Shown here one piece after another: positions 3,685 to 57,804 of a DNA stretch of 64,000 nucleotides (position 1 is its first letter; each line of letters opens with the position of its first letter). The notes under the pieces are model-generated. The model did no database searches. It had not been told where the DNA came from and saw only the letters and a program-made list of their open reading frames with translations. The position numbers and the translations under genes were made by a program. Source of the stretch: Collinsella sp. An2 (lineage in GTDB: Bacteria > Actinomycetota > Coriobacteriia > Coriobacteriales > Coriobacteriaceae); contig NZ_NFJW01000004.1 of assembly GCF_002160065.1 (NCBI RefSeq), positions 113,256 through 177,255 of the forward strand. Reading direction: 5' to 3'.

Positions 3685-6600
3685 CTAGCGCCTGCGAAGG
3701 CGGGCCGCTATGGCAGCGCCTGTGAAGGCGAGGACGGACCCGAGGACGGCGACGAATGCGGACAGGTGCGAGCCGTCTCCCGTCTGGGCGAGCGTGCCGC
3801 CGGCGGGATGCGCGGCGTTGCCGCCGCTTGCCGCCGCGTCGTCGACATCCGGAGTTGTGCCCGTGCCTTGGTTGTTGGTGCTGCCCGCGGGGTCGCCTGC
3901 GCCGTCGCCATTCGGGCCGTTGGTTGAGCTTCCGCTGCCGTCGCCGTCAGGCGTATCCGGCTGACCTTCGGACCCATCGCCGGGCTCACCGTCCGTGCTG
4001 CCGCCCGGTTTGCCGCCCTCGGGCTCGTTGCCCGTGTTGCCTCCCGGCTGTCCATCCTCGGGTTCGTCGTCGGAATCCTTACCGGGGTCGGTGGAGGGTT
4101 GGTCGCTGTCGCCTGGCACGCTCTCGTCTTCTGTGTCGTCAGGTGTGCCGTTTACGTCGCCATCTGGGCTGCCAGGGCCTTCATCCGAGCCGCTGCCAGC
4201 GCCCGTGTCGTCGTCGCCACCAGCGTCGTCGCCGGGCTCGCCGTCACTGCCGTTGTCGCCACTGCCAGAACCATCGCCATCTCCTGAGCCGTCGCTGTCG
4301 CCAGCATCCGAGCCGTCGTTGCCCCCGCCACTTACCGAGTCGTCATCCTCGTTGTCGGATCCAGGCTCTTCGCCAGCGCCCGCGTCGCCGTCGCCCGACC
4401 CGCTTCCGCCCGCGTCGCCGTCATCGTTATCGGAGCCATCTTCACCATCTCCCGTCTCCGGAGTCTCGGCGTCTTCGCCTTCATCCGGCAGCTCGCTGTC
4501 AACGCCGTCGATGCGTCCCAGATTGCTGGGATTTAGCTCCACGTCGTACGCAACGACGCGGTAGGACGTCAGGTCGTCGGCGCCTCCGTTTCCGTCGCGT
4601 TCACCGTCCTCAACCATCTCATCAACAGCCACCGAGAACGACCCCGTGCGCGAGAAGCCAACCAGTTTATTGCCTCGATAGAGCTCGTAGGCAGTCGTGG
4701 AGCGCCCGAGCTCGTCGGTCGCCATCTGCGCTGTGATGTGCACCGTTCCCGCTTCGACCTGTGCCGTCACCTGGGGTGTCACGGCCTCTGTATACGCGCC
4801 CGCCCCGTTGATGACGGCGGCGTCGGTATCCAGCGAGAAGTACTGCACTTTGCGGGGCATGGTGGGGTACTGCGCGCAATAGGCAAGCACCTCGGGCGCG
4901 AGGTCGCGCTGGCCCATGTCGTACAGGTATGCCGCGAAGTCGTAGCCCGTGCCCATGGTGAACGCCATGGCGATGCGATTGTAGCGGCGCACCGTATCGT
5001 CCGAAATGCCCGTGGTCGTCTGTTCGATGGCCCGCACGGCCTCGGCATCTCCTCTCAGCACGCGCATGCTTGCGCCATACGCGCCAAAACGCTGCACGTC
5101 GGAGGCCGTTGCGGGCGTATAGGGGCTTGCGTCGAAGTCATAGTCCGCGTAGTTCCAGGTATTAAAGAAGTGCAGGCCGTTCCACCAGGCCATAAGGTGC
5201 GTCCAAATGTAGGTCTCCCAGTCGCCTCCGTTGTACCAATCGGGCGTATAGGTAGGGTCTGCGGCCATGCGTGCGAGCTCGTTGTCCCAGCGGCGCGTCG
5301 CGGCAAGCGCGTTCACGTGGTAGTAGGCATCGGGCGAGAAGGCCACGCCGCGGGCGTTGGCGTCGGCGATGCCTCCGTGGCGCGACCCGGCGAGCGAATA
5401 CAGGTTGTTGGTCTCCTCTGCGACCGAGATCACCGCGTTGTCCAAGCAGTGGCCGTACTCGTGCGACATGCCCCACCCATACATGGATTCACCGGAAAGA
5501 AACGAGGCCGCATCGCTTTCGGGCATGTGGAAGTAGCGCTCGAAGGCATACATGGTCGAGGGCGACCAAACGGTGCTCGTGAACGCTGTATGCACGCGCA
5601 TGGGGGAGACGGCGTTGGGGCCGGATTGCTCGCGGGGGTCAAAGCCGTCGTATGCCCAGAAGAACTCCAGCCGCTGCTGGATAGCGTCGTTTGAGCGCTC
5701 GATATAGGCGATGGCGTCATCGCGCGAAGCAATGCCATCGTAGGCGGCGGCAAGCGCGGTCGCGCTGATGGAGAACTGCGCGTGGCCCTCGTCGCCCATC
5801 TGCAGAAGCGTCATGTCGGCGGCCTCGCCTGCATGTGCCTTGCTAGCGTAGTCGCGCAGCTCCTGGACAAAGCCCCAAAACGCCTCAGGTTTCGTGGGGT
5901 CGTGCTCGTAGAACGGATGGACGCCCAGGCTGTTTCCCACCACAGGTGCCGTTCCGGCCTCGATGACGTCGGCGCTTTCCAGCCGTGCGCGTGCCGGGTT
6001 GTCCTGAGCGTCGTTGCGCAGAAAGACCATGTAGCCGTAGCGGCTTTCGGTGAGGTCGACCGTGATGCGATTGAGGCCCGATGCAAGCTGAGACTTCTGG
6101 TGAAGGTTGAGCGACGTGTAGCTGTTTGAGTCGGTGCGCCCCGCCTGTCGCCAGGCAAGCGAGAGCTTGCTGGGGTCGGCGGCCTCCACGTACAGATTCA
6201 GGTCGTGCACCATGCCGGGCTTGAGGTAGTAGCCCGTGACATCGAGGTTGTCGAACGAGAAGACCTGCTGCGTGCGCTGTTTTTCCTCGGCGGGGGAGCC
6301 CAGCTGCGAGACGGACATCACCGAGTCCTCAATCGCGTCTCGGTTATCGGCAAGGTAGGTCGCATAGCGCTCCAACCGGTCAAGCTGTGCCAACCGCACC
6401 TCGTATTCGGGGGTGGGGGCGTTGGCGAAGTGCTCCTCAATGCGCTCGCGCATGGTCATAAAGACGCCGTCTACAAGCAGCTCGTCGCGCAGGGTGAGGC
6501 CCAGGTCGTCGGCAAAGGGCTCGTCAAGCCACGCAAAGACCTCGCTTGCAGCGTGGGCAAGCACGGCGATACGCTCGGGGTTATCCGGGTCGATGATGGC

Positions 6601-7953
6601 CGATACGGCCGCAACGGGGTCGGTGTCACTCAGCACCGAGAGACGCCCGATTGTGGCGCGCGCAACATCGCTGGAAGCGCACCGAGCAACCTCGCGCCCC
6701 TCTCCCCGGCGGTCCATGAGCACGATATTGAGAGGGTCTGTAATCGAGTGCCGTGCCAGGACGCTTTCGAAAACGAGTGTTGAGTTGTCGTGCAGGTATA
6801 CGCGCTCGCCGTTCTCGAGGCGCGCCTGGTCGCCCAGGGTAAGCGTCGCCTGCGCATCGACCATGATGCCACAGGGGGTTTGCATGGAGTTCGCCCCAAT
6901 GGCGCCTCCGGTGAATGCAAAGGAGCCGCCGGCAAGAACGTGCACCACGCCGTCGTTCGAGACGTTCGACGAGTTGCCCGATATGGTGCCACCAGTCATG
7001 CGGATGGTGCCTTTAGCCCAGACCATGGACTGCGAGTAGCTCGCGCGGTTGTTCTTAATGCTGCCTTCTCGCAGTTCAAAGGTGCTGCCTGCCTCAACGG
7101 CGACGGCGGTGTTGCGCATGGAGAACCCGTCGCGGATTTCGCCGCCGTCTAAAACAAAGGTGCCCGAGCGCACGTAGACGGCGCCCCAGGGCTTCCAGGA
7201 GCAATGGGCCCGCGCAATTGCTGTACCGGCGCGCATGGCGAAGGATGATTGGTCATACAGGGTCACGATTGCTTCGTCCGAGTCGGTATCGGTGCCGTCC
7301 AGCGTGAGCGCGCCGCCTGTCGACTCGAGTACAAGCGACGATCCTCCTCGGAGCCTGAACATGCCTGCGGCCTTGCCGTTTACCTGGGCAAAGGTGTCTG
7401 CTCGTGCGATGGTGCACTGGTCTGTTGCGCGCAGGGTGACCGCGCGTCCGCCATCGAGCTCGATTGGCTCGTTGATAAGCTGGTCGCTCGACACCTCGAT
7501 GACTTCTCCGTTTTGCGCGGTGGCAAAGGCTTCAGCAAGGGTGGCGAAGCCCAGCTGCTCCCCATCGCGCACGATGGTGACCGTGTGGGTTATGACGGAA
7601 TCCGCGCCTTCTTCAGAGGTGCCGGTGTTTGCGTTATCGGCGTTTTCAGTGGGATCGATGGTGTGCGCCTTTCCAGATGAGTGGGCGCCTTCTGGGATGT
7701 CGGCATCTGCTACCGGCTCTGATTCTGGGGCCATGGCGTCTACAAGCGCAGTATCGCTCTCGAAGATGGCGTTGGAGTCAGGTAACGTTTCCGTTGCCGA
7801 TGCACTGTCGGTTGCAAGGGCGCTTTCGAGCGAGGCGTGTGCTGAAAGCCCGGCAGAGATTGATGGATGTTTGGCAGCGTCGATGCTCGCAGGGGCAAGG
7901 CTCACGGCGAGCAGGCCACCAAGGATGGCCGGTGCGATTCTGTTATGGGGCAT
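3685..7953 (-). CDS. Secreted, sortase-anchored M60-like zinc metalloprotease (mucinase type)
   Basis: 1422 residues. The N-terminus has a signal peptide (AILGGLLAVSLAPASIDAA). Residues of about 130-480 contain a right-handed beta-helix-like region, with repeated short GG...L.G.I turns. The catalytic domain carries HEYGH at about 831-835, followed by EETNNLYSL about 11 residues later. This is the M60/enhancin signature, in which the two His and a downstream Glu bind zinc. Residues of about 1170-1385 form an extremely Asp/Gly/Ser/Glu-rich spacer. The end carries LAQTGD, a hydrophobic helix and RLRRR, a LAxTG-type sorting signal. By family, M60 enzymes cleave mucin-type O-glycoproteins; host mucus as the target here is inference. 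Confidence 0.88.
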   Translation of the reverse strand: MPHNRIAPAILGGLLAVSLAPASIDAAKHPSISAGLSAHASLESALATDSASATETLPDSNAIFESDTALVDAMAPESEPVADADIPEGAHSSGKAHTIDPTENADNANTGTSEEGADSVITHTVTIVRDGEQLGFATLAEAFATAQNGEVIEVSSDQLINEPIELDGGRAVTLRATDQCTIARADTFAQVNGKAAGMFRLRGGSSLVLESTGGALTLDGTDTDSDEAIVTLYDQSSFAMRAGTAIARAHCSWKPWGAVYVRSGTFVLDGGEIRDGFSMRNTAVAVEAGSTFELREGSIKNNRASYSQSMVWAKGTIRMTGGTISGNSSNVSNDGVVHVLAGGSFAFTGGAIGANSMQTPCGIMVDAQATLTLGDQARLENGERVYLHDNSTLVFESVLARHSITDPLNIVLMDRRGEGREVARCASSDVARATIGRLSVLSDTDPVAAVSAIIDPDNPERIAVLAHAASEVFAWLDEPFADDLGLTLRDELLVDGVFMTMRERIEEHFANAPTPEYEVRLAQLDRLERYATYLADNRDAIEDSVMSVSQLGSPAEEKQRTQQVFSFDNLDVTGYYLKPGMVHDLNLYVEAADPSKLSLAWRQAGRTDSNSYTSLNLHQKSQLASGLNRITVDLTESRYGYMVFLRNDAQDNPARARLESADVIEAGTAPVVGNSLGVHPFYEHDPTKPEAFWGFVQELRDYASKAHAGEAADMTLLQMGDEGHAQFSISATALAAAYDGIASRDDAIAYIERSNDAIQQRLEFFWAYDGFDPREQSGPNAVSPMRVHTAFTSTVWSPSTMYAFERYFHMPESDAASFLSGESMYGWGMSHEYGHCLDNAVISVAEETNNLYSLAGSRHGGIADANARGVAFSPDAYYHVNALAATRRWDNELARMAADPTYTPDWYNGGDWETYIWTHLMAWWNGLHFFNTWNYADYDFDASPYTPATASDVQRFGAYGASMRVLRGDAEAVRAIEQTTTGISDDTVRRYNRIAMAFTMGTGYDFAAYLYDMGQRDLAPEVLAYCAQYPTMPRKVQYFSLDTDAAVINGAGAYTEAVTPQVTAQVEAGTVHITAQMATDELGRSTTAYELYRGNKLVGFSRTGSFSVAVDEMVEDGERDGNGGADDLTSYRVVAYDVELNPSNLGRIDGVDSELPDEGEDAETPETGDGEDGSDNDDGDAGGSGSGDGDAGAGEEPGSDNEDDDSVSGGGNDGSDAGDSDGSGDGDGSGSGDNGSDGEPGDDAGGDDDTGAGSGSDEGPGSPDGDVNGTPDDTEDESVPGDSDQPSTDPGKDSDDEPEDGQPGGNTGNEPEGGKPGGSTDGEPGDGSEGQPDTPDGDGSGSSTNGPNGDGAGDPAGSTNNQGTGTTPDVDDAAASGGNAAHPAGGTLAQTGDGSHLSAFVAVLGSVLAFTGAAIAARLRRR

Positions 7954-8208
7954 GGTGTTTCCTTTCGCATCTCACGCTCCGTCGGGAACGTGGCCGCGCT
8001 GCGGATTTTGAGCGCGGGAGGCAGTAGCTGTCTAGGTGCGGTGTCGGTTATACCCCGCTGACAAATCGTCAATAGCGGATCATAGTCCGAATTCATACGT
8101 TCTGCAAAATCCTATCGAGCAGATAGGGAGAACTGCTGTTGCCGTAGATGCGTCAATGGGGTCCAGGCGAGCTGCCAAACGTGAGCGTGGGGCCGCGTCA
8201 TGCACACT

Positions 8209-8341
8209 CGTTTCGGAAAAGGGCGTCCGATTCGGGAACCCTCGAGTAGCCGAGATATTTCTTCAAAGAAATCGCAGGTCAGAGCATCGCACTTTTTGGG
8301 TTACTCGGCGATTTCGGAAATGGACGCCCTTTTCCGAAACG
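8209..8341. repeat. Palindromic intergenic element, family 3, copy 1
   Basis: CGTTTCGGAAAAGGGCGTCC at 8209-8228 is repeated as an exact 20-bp inverted copy at 8322-8341. Inside lie further imperfectly paired arms (CTCGAGTAG against TTACTCGG). A second copy with the same 17-bp core is at 53234-53362. No transposase lies inside, so it resembles a MITE or large REP-type element. The rest of the 7954-8644 gap holds the promoter region of the M60-like gene and a candidate promoter for the next gene. Confidence 0.85.
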
Positions 8342-8505
8342 ACTGTTTTGAGACTGCTCGGATCGAGGACAAAATCCTGTAGGAAACGGCCTACATCGGT
8401 AAGGCTAAAGCTGCATACGAATATCAGGTCGCTCAAAACGCCGTCCTTAACACGCAAAGAGGCCTTTGAGCACCCCAGGACCCGGTCTGAGCTGACAGAG
8501 AATGG

Positions 8506-29992: not shown

Positions 29993-31036
29993 ATGACTGA
30001 GTTCGGCAAGGTTGAAGAGATGGACAACGAGATGGACGAGACGATGGCCGAGGCTGCTGCGATCGCAGGTGCAGCCGAGCTTGACGACGAGCAGGTCGCC
30101 GCGGAGGATGCGGACGACGCGGTCGTCGAGGATGAGAAGGCCGACGACGTCGAGGAGACCGCTGAGGTCGCTTCCGACGAGGAGAAGGCTGACGAGAAGG
30201 ACGAGGAGAAGGCCGTTGCGCCCGAGGACCTGGATGACCAGCTCTTCGACAAGCTGAACCGTGCTGCCCGCCTCATGCGCGCCCGTCGCGACGTGCTCGC
30301 CGAGCAGGCCGCTGAGGAGGCAGAGCGCCTGAACACCCTGAAGCGCGCCCTCAAGCTGCTCGAGCTCAAGCCCAAGATGGAGGAGAAGGAGATGGCTGAC
30401 CTCATGGGCATGCGTCTCCGTGAGCTCAACGAGATCCTCATCAAGGCCGAGAAGGAAGATATCGTCGCTCGTGTCGAGCCCGAGGACAACGACATGCGTC
30501 ACGTGGTGGTCTTTGCCAGCGAGGACGCTATGGAGCTGGCCGAGGCTCAGGGCAAGAAGCGCAAGAAGTACATTCCGCAGCTCTCTGCTGAGTCCGCTGA
30601 GCAGCTGCTCTCCCTGCTTGATCAGGTGATCGACCCGCTGACCGCTATGGGCCTGGATCGTCCGACCGAGAAGCGCGACGAGCGTGGTGGCCGTGGCGAT
30701 CGTGGTGGCTTCGGCGGACGCGGCGGCGACCGCGGTGGCCGTGGCGGCTTCGGCGATCGTGACCGCGGCGGTCGTGGCGGTTTCGGTGGCCACGGCGATC
30801 GTGGCGGCCGCGGCGGCTTTGGTGGCCGCGGTGGTGACCGTGGTGGCCGTGGCGATCGTGGTGGCTTCGGCGGACGCGGCGGCGACCGCGGTGGCCGTGG
30901 CGGCTTCGGCGATCGTGACCGCGGTGGTCGCGGTGGCTTTGGCGACCGTGGCGGACGCGGTGGTTACGGCGGTCACAACGACCGCGGTGGCCGTGGCGGC
31001 TTTGGTGACCGCGGTGGCCGTGGTGGTCGCTACTAA
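29993..31036 (+). CDS. Acidic / winged-helix / RGG-repeat protein, likely nucleic-acid binding
   Basis: 347 residues from ATG at 29993 behind GGAGGAAAT. The track start 72 bp upstream lacks an RBS. Three parts are visible. First is a very acidic N-terminal region (about 1-80, Glu/Asp/Ala). Second is a MarR-like winged helix (about 85-225: LKRALKLLELKPKMEEKEMADLMGM, then a wing with DMRHVVVFASEDAMELA). Third is a C-terminal tail of about 115 residues built from RGG, GDRGGRGG and FGGRGG repeats. RGG tails bind RNA and drive condensation in other proteins; a role in RNA or transcription control is inference. Confidence 0.85.
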   Translation: MTEFGKVEEMDNEMDETMAEAAAIAGAAELDDEQVAAEDADDAVVEDEKADDVEETAEVASDEEKADEKDEEKAVAPEDLDDQLFDKLNRAARLMRARRDVLAEQAAEEAERLNTLKRALKLLELKPKMEEKEMADLMGMRLRELNEILIKAEKEDIVARVEPEDNDMRHVVVFASEDAMELAEAQGKKRKKYIPQLSAESAEQLLSLLDQVIDPLTAMGLDRPTEKRDERGGRGDRGGFGGRGGDRGGRGGFGDRDRGGRGGFGGHGDRGGRGGFGGRGGDRGGRGDRGGFGGRGGDRGGRGGFGDRDRGGRGGFGDRGGRGGYGGHNDRGGRGGFGDRGGRGGRY

Positions 31037-33828: not shown

Positions 33829-36222
33829 ATGGATAACACACGTCAGCCGGGGGAGGCCAAGCAGACCACCCTCGAGCAACTTGAGATAGGCAAGGACGCC
33901 ATCATCGCATCGGTCGATTGCAGCGATGCGGGCCTGCGTCAACACATCCTGGACATGGGCCTGACGCCGGGCACCGAGGTCACCATGATGAAGTTTGCCC
34001 CCATGGGCGACCCCATGGAGATTCGCCTGCGCGGTTACGAGCTCACGCTACGCCGTGACGATGCGGCGCATATCGCGCTCACGGATGTTCACGATGCGCA
34101 CAACAACCCGCGTTGCACCACCAAGGGCTCCGCCGTGGCTCACCCTGCCTTGGGCGAAGACGCGGCCAAGCCCCGGCGTGCGGGCGCGGCCCTTGCCGAG
34201 TCGGCGCCGCTCAGCTTCGCGCTCGCCGGCAATCAGAACTGCGGCAAGACGACGCTCTTCAACCAGCTGACCGGCTCGAACCAGCACGTGGGCAATTTTC
34301 CCGGCGTGACGGTCGACCGCAAAGATGGCCAGATCAAGGGACATCCCAACGCGCGAATCACCGACCTGCCGGGCATCTACTCGCTCTCGCCGTATACGAG
34401 CGAAGAGGTGGTGAGCCGCCGGTTCATTCTGGACGAGCATCCCGATGCGATCGTCGACATCGTCGATGCCACCAACATCGAACGAAACCTCTACCTTACT
34501 CTGCAGCTCATGGAGCTCGACCTGCCCATGGTGCTTGCCCTCAACATGATGGACGAGCTCTCGGCAAACGGCGGCTCTGTGGACGTGAACGCACTCGAGG
34601 CCGCGCTCGGAATTCCTGTGGTGCCCATCTCGGCCGCAAAGAACGAGGGCATCGGCGAGTTGGTGGAGCACGCGCTGCACGTGGCGCGGTATCGCGAGCG
34701 CCCGGGCCGCATCGACTTCTGCGCTCCCGACGGCCCCGACCACGGTGCGCTGCACCGCTGCATTCACGGCCTGATCGAGCTGGTGGGAGATCACGCCCAG
34801 GCCGCAGGCATCCCGCCGCGCTTCGCCGCAACGAAGATCATCGAGGGCGACCATCTGGTCATCGATTCGCTGGCCCTCGACGATAACGAGCTCGATGCAA
34901 TCGAGCACATCATTCACCAGATGGAGGAGGAGTCCGGCACCGACCGCATGGCCGCCCTCGCCGACATGCGCTTCGCGTTCATCGAGGACGTTTGCGCGCG
35001 CAGCGTGGTAAAGCCCCACGAGAGCCGCGAGCACCTGCGCAGCGTTGCCGCGGACCGCATTCTCACCGGCAAATACACGGCGATTCCGGTGTTCATCCTC
35101 ATCATGGCACTCGTGTTCTGGCTGACGTTCGATGTGGTGGGGCAGCGCCTCTCCGACCTGCTGGAGCTTGGCATTCAGGCGCTCACGGGCGTGGTCGACC
35201 AAGCGCTTACCAACTTCGGCGTAAATCCGGTGGTGCATTCACTGGTAATCGACGGCATCTTTGCGGGCGTGGGTAGCGTGCTATCCTTCCTGCCCATCAT
35301 CGTGGTATTGTTCTTGCTGCTTTCCATGCTCGAGGACTCGGGCTATATGGCGCGCGTGGCCTTTGTGATGGATAAGATTCTGCGCAAGCTGGGGCTTTCC
35401 GGACGCAGCTTCGTGCCCATGCTCATCGGTTTCGGCTGCAGCGTGCCCGCTATCATGGCGACGCGCACCCTGCCCTCGGAGCACGATCGCAAGATGACGG
35501 TCATGCTCACGCCGTTCATGAGCTGCTCGGCAAAGCTGCCGGTCTATGCGCTGTTCTCGGCGGCGTTTTTCCCCGACTGCGCCCCGCTCGTGATGATTGC
35601 GATGTACCTCATGGGCATCGTTGTGGGCATTCTCGTGGCGCTGGTGCTCAAGCATACGGCGTTCCGGGGCGACCCGGTGCCGTTTGTAATGGAGCTTCCT
35701 AACTACCGCCTGCCCAGTCTGAAGACCACGGTGCATCTGGCGTGGGACAAGGCGAAGGGCTTCGTGACCAAGGCGTTCACGATCATCTTTGCAGCAAGCG
35801 TCATCATTTGGTTCTTGCAGACGTTTGACATTCGCTTCAACGTTGTAAGCGACCAGAGTCAGAGCATGCTCGCCGCATTGGGCACGTTCGTTTCCCCGAT
35901 TTTCCGTCCGCTTGGATTTGGCAGCTGGATCGCATCCGCGGCGATCGTGGCGGGCTTCGGCGCCAAGGAGAACGTCGCTGCGACGCTCACGGTGCTGCTT
36001 GGGGGTTCTACGGCGGCGCTCGCAACGCTCTTTACACCGCTTACGGCCTTTACGTTCCTTACGTTTGTGCTGCTGTACACGCCGTGCGTCGCGGCGATCT
36101 CGGCCGTCCGCAACGAGCTGGGTTCGCGCTATGCCACAGGAGTGGTGCTCATGCAGTGCGGCGTCGCGTGGGTCGTCGCGCTGGTGGTGCACCTTATCGG
36201 CATGGCGTTGGGGTTGGCATAA
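33829..36222 (+). CDS. feoB: Ferrous iron transporter, FeoA-FeoB fusion
   Basis: 797 residues from ATG at 33829 behind GTGAGGTGGG. Residues of about 10-85 are a FeoA SH3-like domain (LRQHILDMGLTPGTEV). A short linker leads to the FeoB G domain: G1 GNQNCGKTTLF at about 133, G2/switch FPGVTVD, G3 DLPGIYSLSPY and G4 NMMDE. The helical GDI domain and a membrane domain of about 8-9 segments follow, with the Fe2+ path motif FGCSVPAIMATR. It imports Fe2+ under anoxic conditions. FeoA is usually a separate gene, and fused forms are known but less common. Confidence 0.94.
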   Translation: MDNTRQPGEAKQTTLEQLEIGKDAIIASVDCSDAGLRQHILDMGLTPGTEVTMMKFAPMGDPMEIRLRGYELTLRRDDAAHIALTDVHDAHNNPRCTTKGSAVAHPALGEDAAKPRRAGAALAESAPLSFALAGNQNCGKTTLFNQLTGSNQHVGNFPGVTVDRKDGQIKGHPNARITDLPGIYSLSPYTSEEVVSRRFILDEHPDAIVDIVDATNIERNLYLTLQLMELDLPMVLALNMMDELSANGGSVDVNALEAALGIPVVPISAAKNEGIGELVEHALHVARYRERPGRIDFCAPDGPDHGALHRCIHGLIELVGDHAQAAGIPPRFAATKIIEGDHLVIDSLALDDNELDAIEHIIHQMEEESGTDRMAALADMRFAFIEDVCARSVVKPHESREHLRSVAADRILTGKYTAIPVFILIMALVFWLTFDVVGQRLSDLLELGIQALTGVVDQALTNFGVNPVVHSLVIDGIFAGVGSVLSFLPIIVVLFLLLSMLEDSGYMARVAFVMDKILRKLGLSGRSFVPMLIGFGCSVPAIMATRTLPSEHDRKMTVMLTPFMSCSAKLPVYALFSAAFFPDCAPLVMIAMYLMGIVVGILVALVLKHTAFRGDPVPFVMELPNYRLPSLKTTVHLAWDKAKGFVTKAFTIIFAASVIIWFLQTFDIRFNVVSDQSQSMLAALGTFVSPIFRPLGFGSWIASAAIVAGFGAKENVAATLTVLLGGSTAALATLFTPLTAFTFLTFVLLYTPCVAAISAVRNELGSRYATGVVLMQCGVAWVVALVVHLIGMALGLA

Positions 36223-36290
36223 GGATTGGCGTAAAGGACTGGCATACCGGCTGGCATTACGGACTGGCACAAAGGACCTGCATAACGGCT
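36223..36290. repeat. Short degenerate tandem repeat after feoAB
   Basis: Five degenerate units built on GGACTGGCATA (spacing about 13-16 bp) run directly on from the feoB stop, for example TAAAGGACTGGCATACC and TTACGGACTGGCACAA. The shared strand suggests slippage copies of the gene's last bases. Confidence 0.5.
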
Positions 36291-36430
36291 CGTTTCGGCG
36301 CGCCGCCATGGCCTGACGGCCAGGTGGCGCGCCGGGCGAGACCGCGCCGAATTGCAGCAGGATGCTCTGAAGATCCTCGGCAGCGTGCCTGCCCCCCGGC
36401 CTTCCAAGAGAATTGCGTGCCCCGCTCTCG

Positions 36431-36600
36431 AGTTACGTGCGCCCGGCTGAAGTTACGTGCACCCGACTGAAGTTGCGCGCGCCCTGCTGAAGTTGCGTGC
36501 GCTCGATTGAAGTTGCGTGCGCGATTCGGCCATAATCACCCCCTTTTGAGGGTGATTATGGCCGAAACCCTCTATCAACTTTAGAATCGCGCACGCAACT
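36431..36600. repeat. Family 2 bidirectional 20-bp-period array with central hairpin, copy C
   Basis: AGTTRCGYGCRC-type units begin at 36431, 36451, 36471, 36491 and 36511, exactly 20 bp apart. TTCGGCCATAATCACCC (36525-36541) then pairs perfectly with GGGTGATTATGGCCGAA (36550-36566). The last forward unit with its flank, GTTGCGTGCGCGATTC, pairs perfectly with GAATCGCGCACGCAAC (36584-36599). It lies between the convergent feoAB and isochorismatase genes. A related copy is at 57615-57804. Confidence 0.9.
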
Positions 36601-36750
36601 CGGACACGGGGCACCCGCTCTTATACCGCCATGATTGTGGCTTCGTCCGTCGCGCTACGTCGCGGCGACAGGCCGCAGGTGCGCCTTCATAGCCAACGTT
36701 CCGTTCGATCATCGTCGGGGCACAAAACAGCCCTGATCGTGTGTCAAAAT

Positions 36751-36877
36751 CGCCGTTTTGTACGACTTGATTTCGTTATACATTTTTGGCAGGTTTTATG
36801 CATTCATTTATCTGGCCTTTTGTTATCGAAAATGGCCTCATCAGATGAAGCTGGAATTCTAGTCGTACAAAACGCCG
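36751..36877. repeat. Imperfect inverted repeat of about 127 bp, AT-rich interior
   Basis: CGCCGTTTTGTACGACT (36751-36767) pairs with AGTCGTACAAAACGCCG (36861-36877) at 15 of 17 positions, and the pairing extends outward over about 15 more bases with mismatches. The interior includes GGTTTTATGCATT, recalling the termini of the element at 31249. There is no credible ORF. It fills the second half of the 838-bp gap 36223-37060. Confidence 0.65.
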
Positions 36878-37060
36878 AGTTTTGCACACATCGGGACCAG
36901 ATTTGTACCTCACCGGTCCCGCAGGCTTTCTGCTCGATGCATAAACCGAGTGCATGACATGTGTGGCGCTCGCTCCGGGGAAGCGCCGGCCGTCGCGGCG
37001 GCACGGCGACGCGAATCCGCATGTCAGCGGTGCGTATTGCCGCCGGCGAAAGCCGCCGCC

Positions 37061-37722: not shown

Positions 37723-38280
37723 ATGGCCGACTATCAGCACATCTCACACGGTTTTGCCCCGGTGTTCGACGCGGATTCGCGTGTGCTTGTGCTGGGGTCG
37801 TTCCCCTCGGTTCTCTCTCGCGCTCATTCGTTTTACTACGGCAATCCCCAAAACCGGTTCTGGCGCGTTATGGCATCGTGCCTGGGCGAGAGCGTTCCTC
37901 CCAACGCGGGCGATGCCCTTTCGGGCACGTCAGAGCCTGCCACCGAGGAGGAATCCATTTGCTCAAAGCGGTCGCTGCTTTTGCGTCACGGTATTGCGCT
38001 ATGGGACGTGATTGAAAGCTGCGATATCAAGGGTTCAAGCGATGCGAGCATTCGAAACGTCGTGCCCGCGCGCATCGAGCGCATCACCGACGCCGCGCCC
38101 ATCGAGGCGGTGCTGTGCAACGGGGGAACTGCCGGGAGGCTCTATCATCGCTACCTCGAGAAGCGAGTGGGAATCGAAGCCCAGGTAATGCCCTCTACGA
38201 GTCCGGCCAACGCGTCGTGGTCGCTCGATCGCCTGACAGAACGTTGGATGGAAACGTTGCGTGCGCTCAATGTAAGTTAG
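37723..38280 (+). CDS. Uracil-DNA glycosylase superfamily, deoxyinosine (hypoxanthine) glycosylase type
   Basis: 185 residues from ATG at 37723 with AAGGGA upstream. The N-terminal motif VLVLGSFPSVLSR...FYYGNPQNRFWRVM is typical of the DNA-deoxyinosine glycosylase branch of the UDG superfamily, as are GIALWDVIESC and the late motif MPSTSPANASWS (His/Ser-rich loop position). It would remove hypoxanthine or related deaminated bases from DNA at the start of base-excision repair. The activity is inferred from family. Confidence 0.85.
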   Translation: MADYQHISHGFAPVFDADSRVLVLGSFPSVLSRAHSFYYGNPQNRFWRVMASCLGESVPPNAGDALSGTSEPATEEESICSKRSLLLRHGIALWDVIESCDIKGSSDASIRNVVPARIERITDAAPIEAVLCNGGTAGRLYHRYLEKRVGIEAQVMPSTSPANASWSLDRLTERWMETLRALNVS

Positions 38281-38371
38281 GTGCCGGCTTCGTCCAAAAG
38301 ACGGACCCTGGAGGCGTCACAATGGCCAAAAAGCTCTATCAACGTGAGCGGGCGACGTAAGAGTGATGCCG

Positions 38372-53149: not shown

Positions 53150-53183
53150 GCGGCCCGCTTCCTCAGGGAGGCGGGCCGCTTTT
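53150..53183 (+). terminator. Rho-independent terminator of rpoBC
   Basis: GCGGCCCGC and GCGGGCCGC pair around a TTCCT-CAG-GGAG inner part and are followed by TTTT, about 30 bp after the rpoC stop. Confidence 0.85.
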
Positions 53184-53233
53184 CTATGGAAACGCTGAAT
53201 ATGGGCCTTCGCGACGACCCTCAGCACGTTCGA

Positions 53234-53362
53234 TTCGGAAAAGGGCGTCCCTTTCCGGAATCGCCGAGTAGACTCTTAAGCTCCGATCCATCTACCAGGT
53301 GTTTTGTCAGTCCAACATACTTGTCTACTCGGCCAATCGCGTTTCGGACGCCCTTTTCCGAA
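53234..53362. repeat. Palindromic intergenic element, family 3, copy 2
   Basis: TTCGGAAAAGGGCGTCC (53234-53250) is exactly inverted at 53346-53362. An inner pair, CCGAGTAGAC/GTCTACTCGG, is also perfect (10 bp). The termini match the element at 8209-8341, while the centres differ. The right arm ends about 30 bp before the LytTR gene start. Confidence 0.88.
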
Positions 53363-53391
53363 GCGAGTGAGCATGAGGAGGCGCGGGGGCG

Positions 53392-57614: not shown

Positions 57615-57804
57615 AGTTACGTGCGGAGTTCTCCAGTTGCGTGCGGCGAATTCACGTTGCATGCCTGCTATTAAAATTGATAGAGGTTTTCGGCCATAAT
57701 TGCCTCCAAATGAGGGTGATTATGGCTGAATCGCGCACGCAACTCTCATTGGGCGTACGCAACTCGCAAACGCCGTACGCAACTTCCGTTGGACGCACGT
57801 TACT
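57615..57804. repeat. Family 2 bidirectional 20-bp-period array with central hairpin, copy D
   Basis: Forward units AGTTACGTGCGG, AGTTGCGTGCGG and CGTTGCATGCC begin at 57615, 57635 and 57655. A central hairpin follows (TTTTCGGCCATAAT...GGGTGATTATGGCTGAA, about 57686-57730, imperfect). Inverted units GCACGCAACT, GTACGCAACT, GTACGCAACT and GCACGTTACT begin at 57735, 57755, 57775 and 57795. Each step is 20 bp. The central sequence matches copy C at 36525. Confidence 0.9.

Follow-up and report, generated by a model that had tools for sequence, protein, structure and literature searches.

Anatomy of the array between feoB and an isochorismatase-like gene

The window analysed here, a stretch of 64,000 nucleotides, contains an ordered array of short repeats at 36411-36600 that lies between feoB (plus strand, ending at 36222) and a convergent isochorismatase-like gene (minus strand, from 37061), the location given in the first-pass annotation. 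The five units described there are in place, with AGTTRCGTGCG-like sequences on the plus strand starting at 36431, 36451, 36471, 36491 and 36511 (36431-36521), all facing inward in steps of exactly 20 bp, the last of them forming the innermost half-site of what we call the A type. A sixth, weaker unit upstream of these five (AATTGCGTGCC, 36411-36421, plus strand) extends the start of the copy to approximately 36411, where it occupies slot -5 of the lattice described below and carries a CCCC-type spacer common to the outer end of several lattice copies. The centre consists of a dyad in which TTCGGCCA (36525-36532) and TGGCCGAA (36559-36566) are separated by 26 nucleotides around position 36545.5, and within it a perfect 17-bp inverted repeat of TTCGGCCATAATCACCC occupies 36525-36541 and 36550-36566. 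To the right follow the B-type innermost unit AGTTGATAGAGG (36569-36580, minus strand), which is in lattice register, and one step further outward the inverted unit AGTTGCGTGCG (36590-36600, minus strand), which is also at a lattice position. The stretch ahead of the inverted unit that could be taken for an asymmetric insert is in fact the B-form variant of the innermost lattice unit on the right. A perfect inverted copy of the last unit had been reported as 16 bp; it is present and measures 17 bp (36511-36527 and 36584-36600).

The window contains 14 matches to the unit with no more than one mismatch compared with 3.1 +/- 1.8 in shuffled sequence, the home genome as a whole contains 50 exact matches compared with 5 for a reversed control, and across the genome 98 of the 107 distances from one strong unit to its neighbour are exactly 20 bp with a further six of 40 bp, so that the array is not due to chance. 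Two further copies lie in the window, one oriented the other way and flanked by rpsJ-like and rplC-like genes (57615-57804, minus strand, dyad centre 57709.5) and one decayed copy between convergent genes that overlaps the end of a DNA-glycosylase-like ORF (38271-38345, plus strand).

Other repeats surround the array. A tandem repeat of 12-13 bp, TGGCATAAAGGAC, spans the feoB stop codon (36215-36290), and an inverted-repeat element, TGTGTGTAAAAATCGGCGTTTTGTACGACT, adjoins the window copy at 36716-36904; three of the five copies of the latter that were found have a 20-bp lattice copy no more than a few hundred bases away. Degenerate tandem repeats at 30674-31030 have a reading rich in G, R, F and D and are probably the glycine- and arginine-rich tail of a protein.

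One lattice across dispersed copies

The array was expected to recur in phase elsewhere in the genome, its absence elsewhere being named as an argument against the design, and it does recur, with approximately 20 loci detected by blastn using the window copy and approximately 30 by a sequence-only profile (R1) built from 20 cores, the copy counts, boundaries and classes all deriving from one draft genome of 46 contigs. By FeoB identity the home organism, a gut bacterium, belongs in or near the Coriobacteriaceae, close to Collinsella sp. An7 and An307 and to the genome of an uncultured member of the Coriobacteriaceae. Outside the home genome the element was absent from everything searched: blastn with the window copy returned no locus in 40 relatives, the profile found no copies in a further 66 genomes from the family including two congeners, the unit showed no enrichment over control in these two congeners, and a search for exact matches to a phased pair of units drew a blank in 84,980 species genomes with the home genome left out. 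The exact phased-pair pattern was also absent from viral contigs, and on this basis a viral origin was rejected. Nor was there a lag-20 signal, as would be given by lattices of other sequence, in 400 kb of congener G002 or 200 kb of congener G001, stretches that held few dispersed repeats of any kind. A search of the literature on repeats in Coriobacteria or Collinsella returned nothing relevant.

When 28 copies were set on their dyads without gaps, a single two-fold symmetric lattice was found to run through the whole element, with unit starts on either side at a distance of 34.5 + 20k bp from the dyad and every unit facing inward. The dyad, TTCGGCCA-N26-TGGCCGAA, has an identical length in 26 of the 28 copies, and the innermost half-site is either of form A (ARTTGCGTGCGCGATTCGGCCA) or of form B (AGTTGATAGAGGNTTTCGGCCA), the two being paired as A/B in most copies, as A/A in four and as B/B in two. 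A leave-one-out phase scan placed 78 strong units of the left arms in phase and one out of phase, and 57 units of the right arms in phase and 13 out of phase, most of the latter appearing on inspection to have been displaced by short indels within the core; no outward-facing unit was found in the scan. The 20-bp family therefore has the single orientation and the constant step near whole helical turns that define a phased array, 20 bp being slightly less than two complete turns at 10.5 bp each.

Copies share an identity of 0.38-0.45 in the spacers and 0.76-0.78 in the motif, compared with 0.26 for random sequence. Since the 20-bp step has persisted where much of the spacer sequence has not, the spacing itself appears to be under constraint; alternatively its regularity could in part reflect a recent shared origin of the copies. 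Neutral tandem slippage and duplication of a functionless sequence would account for the decay of the outer units and for one close pair of copies whose difference is exactly one 20-bp unit, but such a process does not give rise to inverted arms or to a centre that stays constant, while around 30 dispersed loci retain phase, direction and dyad length despite diverged spacers, and we give this account almost no credence.

Dispersal together with restriction to one genome suggests that the element is mobile. MITEs and the ends of Tn7-like and Mu-like elements provide a known layout of this kind, a non-autonomous dispersed element with inverted arms of iterated sites, and the arrays may accordingly be imagined as the two ends of a transposon remnant or miniature, carrying iterated transposase sites around a core that is the shrunken middle. 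This reading is in keeping with dispersed inverted arrays of sites of about 20 bp, with the CCCC-type spacer shared by several outermost units and with two half-site types giving rise to A/B, A/A and B/B copies. We nevertheless hold it to be unlikely, as the outer boundaries are ragged, with no sharp ends, shared terminal dinucleotide or target duplications found at the copies of this one draft genome, conservation peaks at the centre and fades toward the tips, and neither a copy with a gene inside nor an autonomous partner was found. One lattice copy, at 6659-7093 of locus L125, is split by a repeat of approximately 316 bp that belongs to another family and also occurs at L134 (1888-2204), and the lattice family is therefore older than at least this one event.

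A fixed dyad flanked by outward tracts would also fit a chromosome-organising site, such as a partition site or loop anchor, with the dyad as the nucleation point from which a protein spreads outward over the arrays, and the distribution of the element is uneven, with 13 of the 30 profile matches on contig C1 (p 0.002, a value computed after seeing the data). Against this, the element is absent from the congeners, the orientation of the copies has no clear bias relative to GC skew, and contig C12, which by skew may hold the origin, has one copy (a DnaA_N search to place the origin gave no match); such a role seems a distinctly poor prospect.

Stem pairing and gene context

The first-pass annotation had remarked that a bidirectional terminator or a topological barrier would be useful at this position. 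The 17-bp hairpin sequence it described is present at 36525-36566, but viewed across the family the perfect pairing is peculiar to the window copy. The covariation score of the stem was reached by 101 of 500 shuffles and its percentage of paired positions by 169 of 500, with no excess over shuffles of compensatory changes that keep the stem across copies. At the inner nine stem positions a mean of 4.1 are symmetric across copies, and all nine are symmetric in the window copy alone. The window copy does fold strongly (z -11), a property of this copy alone because the inner pairing has been lost in the rest of the family. No terminator-like site was found within 36411-36620, the window copy having no terminator-like T-tract, and the window gave no match to Rfam. 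At a minimum of three loci (L034, L036 and L044) direct reading shows a separate T-run hairpin that follows the upstream gene and precedes the element. An RNA hairpin or terminator was rejected, given covariation at the level of shuffles, lost inner pairing and the lack of both a terminator site and an Rfam match, and the idea of a bidirectional terminator is not supported by these results.

All copies are intergenic or at a gene end, and the flanking genes appear on inspection to be mostly housekeeping genes. With the split copy counted once and tRNA positions included, 9-10 of 29 elements lie between convergent genes, 17-18 in co-directional gaps and two beside divergent, doubtful short ORFs; these counts were made after seeing the data and rest on home-made gene calls, in which starts and short ORFs are approximate. 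The suggested enrichment between convergent genes is thus present in modest form, with co-directional gaps being the more common setting. Several copies lie downstream of the genes for tmRNA, tRNA-Met and tRNA-Thr. A look for an empty site beyond feoB in relatives met a different gene order there, and in Collinsella sp. An7 the gap after feoB (locus L178, approximately 6400-6600) contains an inverted-repeat element of another kind, AAACTCGACCC ... GATGTGAGTGTATCTTTTGG.

Of the 18 copies in co-directional gaps, 16 are nearer to the 3' end of the upstream gene. This, the third or so of copies that lie between convergent genes and the strength with which the window copy folds could all be taken to indicate a transcriptional insulator or bidirectional terminator, where RNA polymerase would be halted at gene ends by the hairpin or by an array-bound protein. 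Set against it are the lack of stem conservation and of a terminator-like site in the window copy, the separate T-tailed hairpins that precede some copies and the absence of the element from congeners, and we consider this function improbable. REPs have the same positional preference for gene 3' ends (PMC3733652), and position alone therefore does not reveal function.

A candidate track for protein assembly and other repeat families

We lean slightly toward regarding the lattice as a non-autonomous dispersed intergenic element whose arrays would provide the track for a putative head-to-tail protein on duplex DNA. Binding to duplex DNA is suggested because phase is kept, the inward direction is uniform, the centre is symmetric and of fixed length, and RNA pairing is not conserved. 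The asymmetric 11-bp site would act as double-stranded DNA, a putative sequence-specific protein would bind head to tail with one protomer or dimer per 20 bp, and assembly would proceed from each side toward the central dyad, which would be held by two symmetric subunits. More speculatively, the nucleoprotein complex may first have served the spread of the element itself, and present copies may persist mainly just past gene 3' ends, where they would do little harm.

Several known systems resemble parts of this layout. In iteron arrays and ParR-type partition sites, tandem protein sites are in phase with the DNA helix, as the putative protein sites are here, but the lattice occurs in about 30 dispersed chromosomal copies, is inverted around a dyad and has no adjacent rep or par gene that we could see. 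Eukaryotic foldback elements have inverted arms made from short tandem repeats, a likeness of layout only, as the lattice element is much shorter, is bacterial and has a fixed dyad. The closest protein precedent is BldC, which assembles directionally head to tail on direct repeats (PMC5859096), and the lattice likewise has directional repeats in variable number suited to such assembly on duplex DNA. The BldC repeats are 9 bp, AT-rich, located at promoters and form a single tract (PMC5859096), whereas the lattice has 20-bp steps, is GC-rich and forms two opposed tracts around a dyad. The home genome has no excess of BldC/Xis-like (HTH_17) proteins, with one compared with three in each of two congeners, and no candidate binding protein for the lattice was found among the RAYT-like gene and HTH_17 proteins considered.

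The usual explanation of dispersed repeats in bacteria is that they form hairpins which RAYT transposases handle in single-stranded form. The lattice shares with REP, REPIN and BIME sequences and their RAYTs a dispersed, extragenic, often species-specific occurrence, mostly downstream of genes and with an inverted arrangement (PMC3116915, PMC3733652, PMC8266576). Together with the presence of a RAYT-like gene in the home genome, its dispersed extragenic copies with inverted parts would be compatible with a REP/REPIN family mobilised by the genome's own RAYT transposase. The RAYT-like gene (C3:37355), however, is flanked by a different repeat, GCCATTGGGGACGGGTACAAATGGC, and not by the lattice unit. 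The unit AGTTRCGTGCG is a non-palindromic 11-mer, unlike the 20-40 bp palindromic unit of REPs and REPINs, its consensus has no GTAG/CGTC tag, regular tandem arrays with a strict 20-bp step are not a REP layout and the dyad stem is not conserved. We consider this reading very improbable, and a RAYT/REP origin of the 20-bp lattice was rejected, the RAYT-like gene carrying another REP, whose family in the home genome is irregularly spaced by eye. A RAYT-like transposase gene (L294, 1123-1878, minus strand; L292; L293) is syntenic in three congeners, in each of which it is flanked by its own REP sequence.

The duplex-track model is supported by a second family in the same genome, GGCAATCCACACGC, unrelated to the 20-bp family in sequence and alike in its inward layout around a constant centre. 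With up to two mismatches it has 141 matches in the home genome compared with 10 for the control. Among the matches listed, same-strand steps are 30 bp (26), 41 bp (7) or 29 bp (1), inward centres are 38-39 bp (17) or 69 bp (5), and there are no outward-facing pairs; the 69-bp centres are consistent with one missed unit. The 30-bp pair pattern has 34 matches in the home genome and none in the control, and was absent from 66 relatives. Examples of inward units around the constant centre lie at C12:38681-38834, C1:157624-157736 and C7:36642-36754. The steps of 20, 30 and 41 bp correspond to about two, three and four helical turns, and in at least two families of the home genome the conserved feature is thus the direction of the sites and their placement at intervals close to whole helical turns, a pattern that points to nucleoprotein complexes forming on duplex DNA. 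Should a binding protein exist, it would reveal a further route by which families of intergenic DNA originate or are maintained. More tentatively, and with rather less confidence than in the model for the 20-bp element itself, the two families may represent a new class of bacterial chromosomal element, in which iteron-like arrays in phase with the helix oppose each other across a fixed dyad, with several families unrelated in sequence in one genome (20-bp and 30/41-bp), each having its own putative head-to-tail binder that spreads or organises its copies.

A layout shared between unrelated families had been noted previously in relation to a 52-bp family; the sharing holds best for GGCAATCCACACGC with its 30/41-bp steps, and the 52-bp family has no obvious array of units. 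In 767 kb sampled from the home genome we found at least eight dispersed intergenic palindromic repeat families, and almost none by the same search in congeners G001 and G002, the stretches of the home sample having been selected in part around repeats. The 52-bp-arm palindromic family (CTCGTTTCGGAAAAGGGCGTCC ... GAGTAG) occurs in the window at 8192-8352 and 53178-53384 and is represented genome-wide by dozens of copies, partial or full, and a sister family, CTCGTTTCGGTTTTATGCAGTT ... GAGTAGAC, has the outer motifs in common with it and a different inner block.
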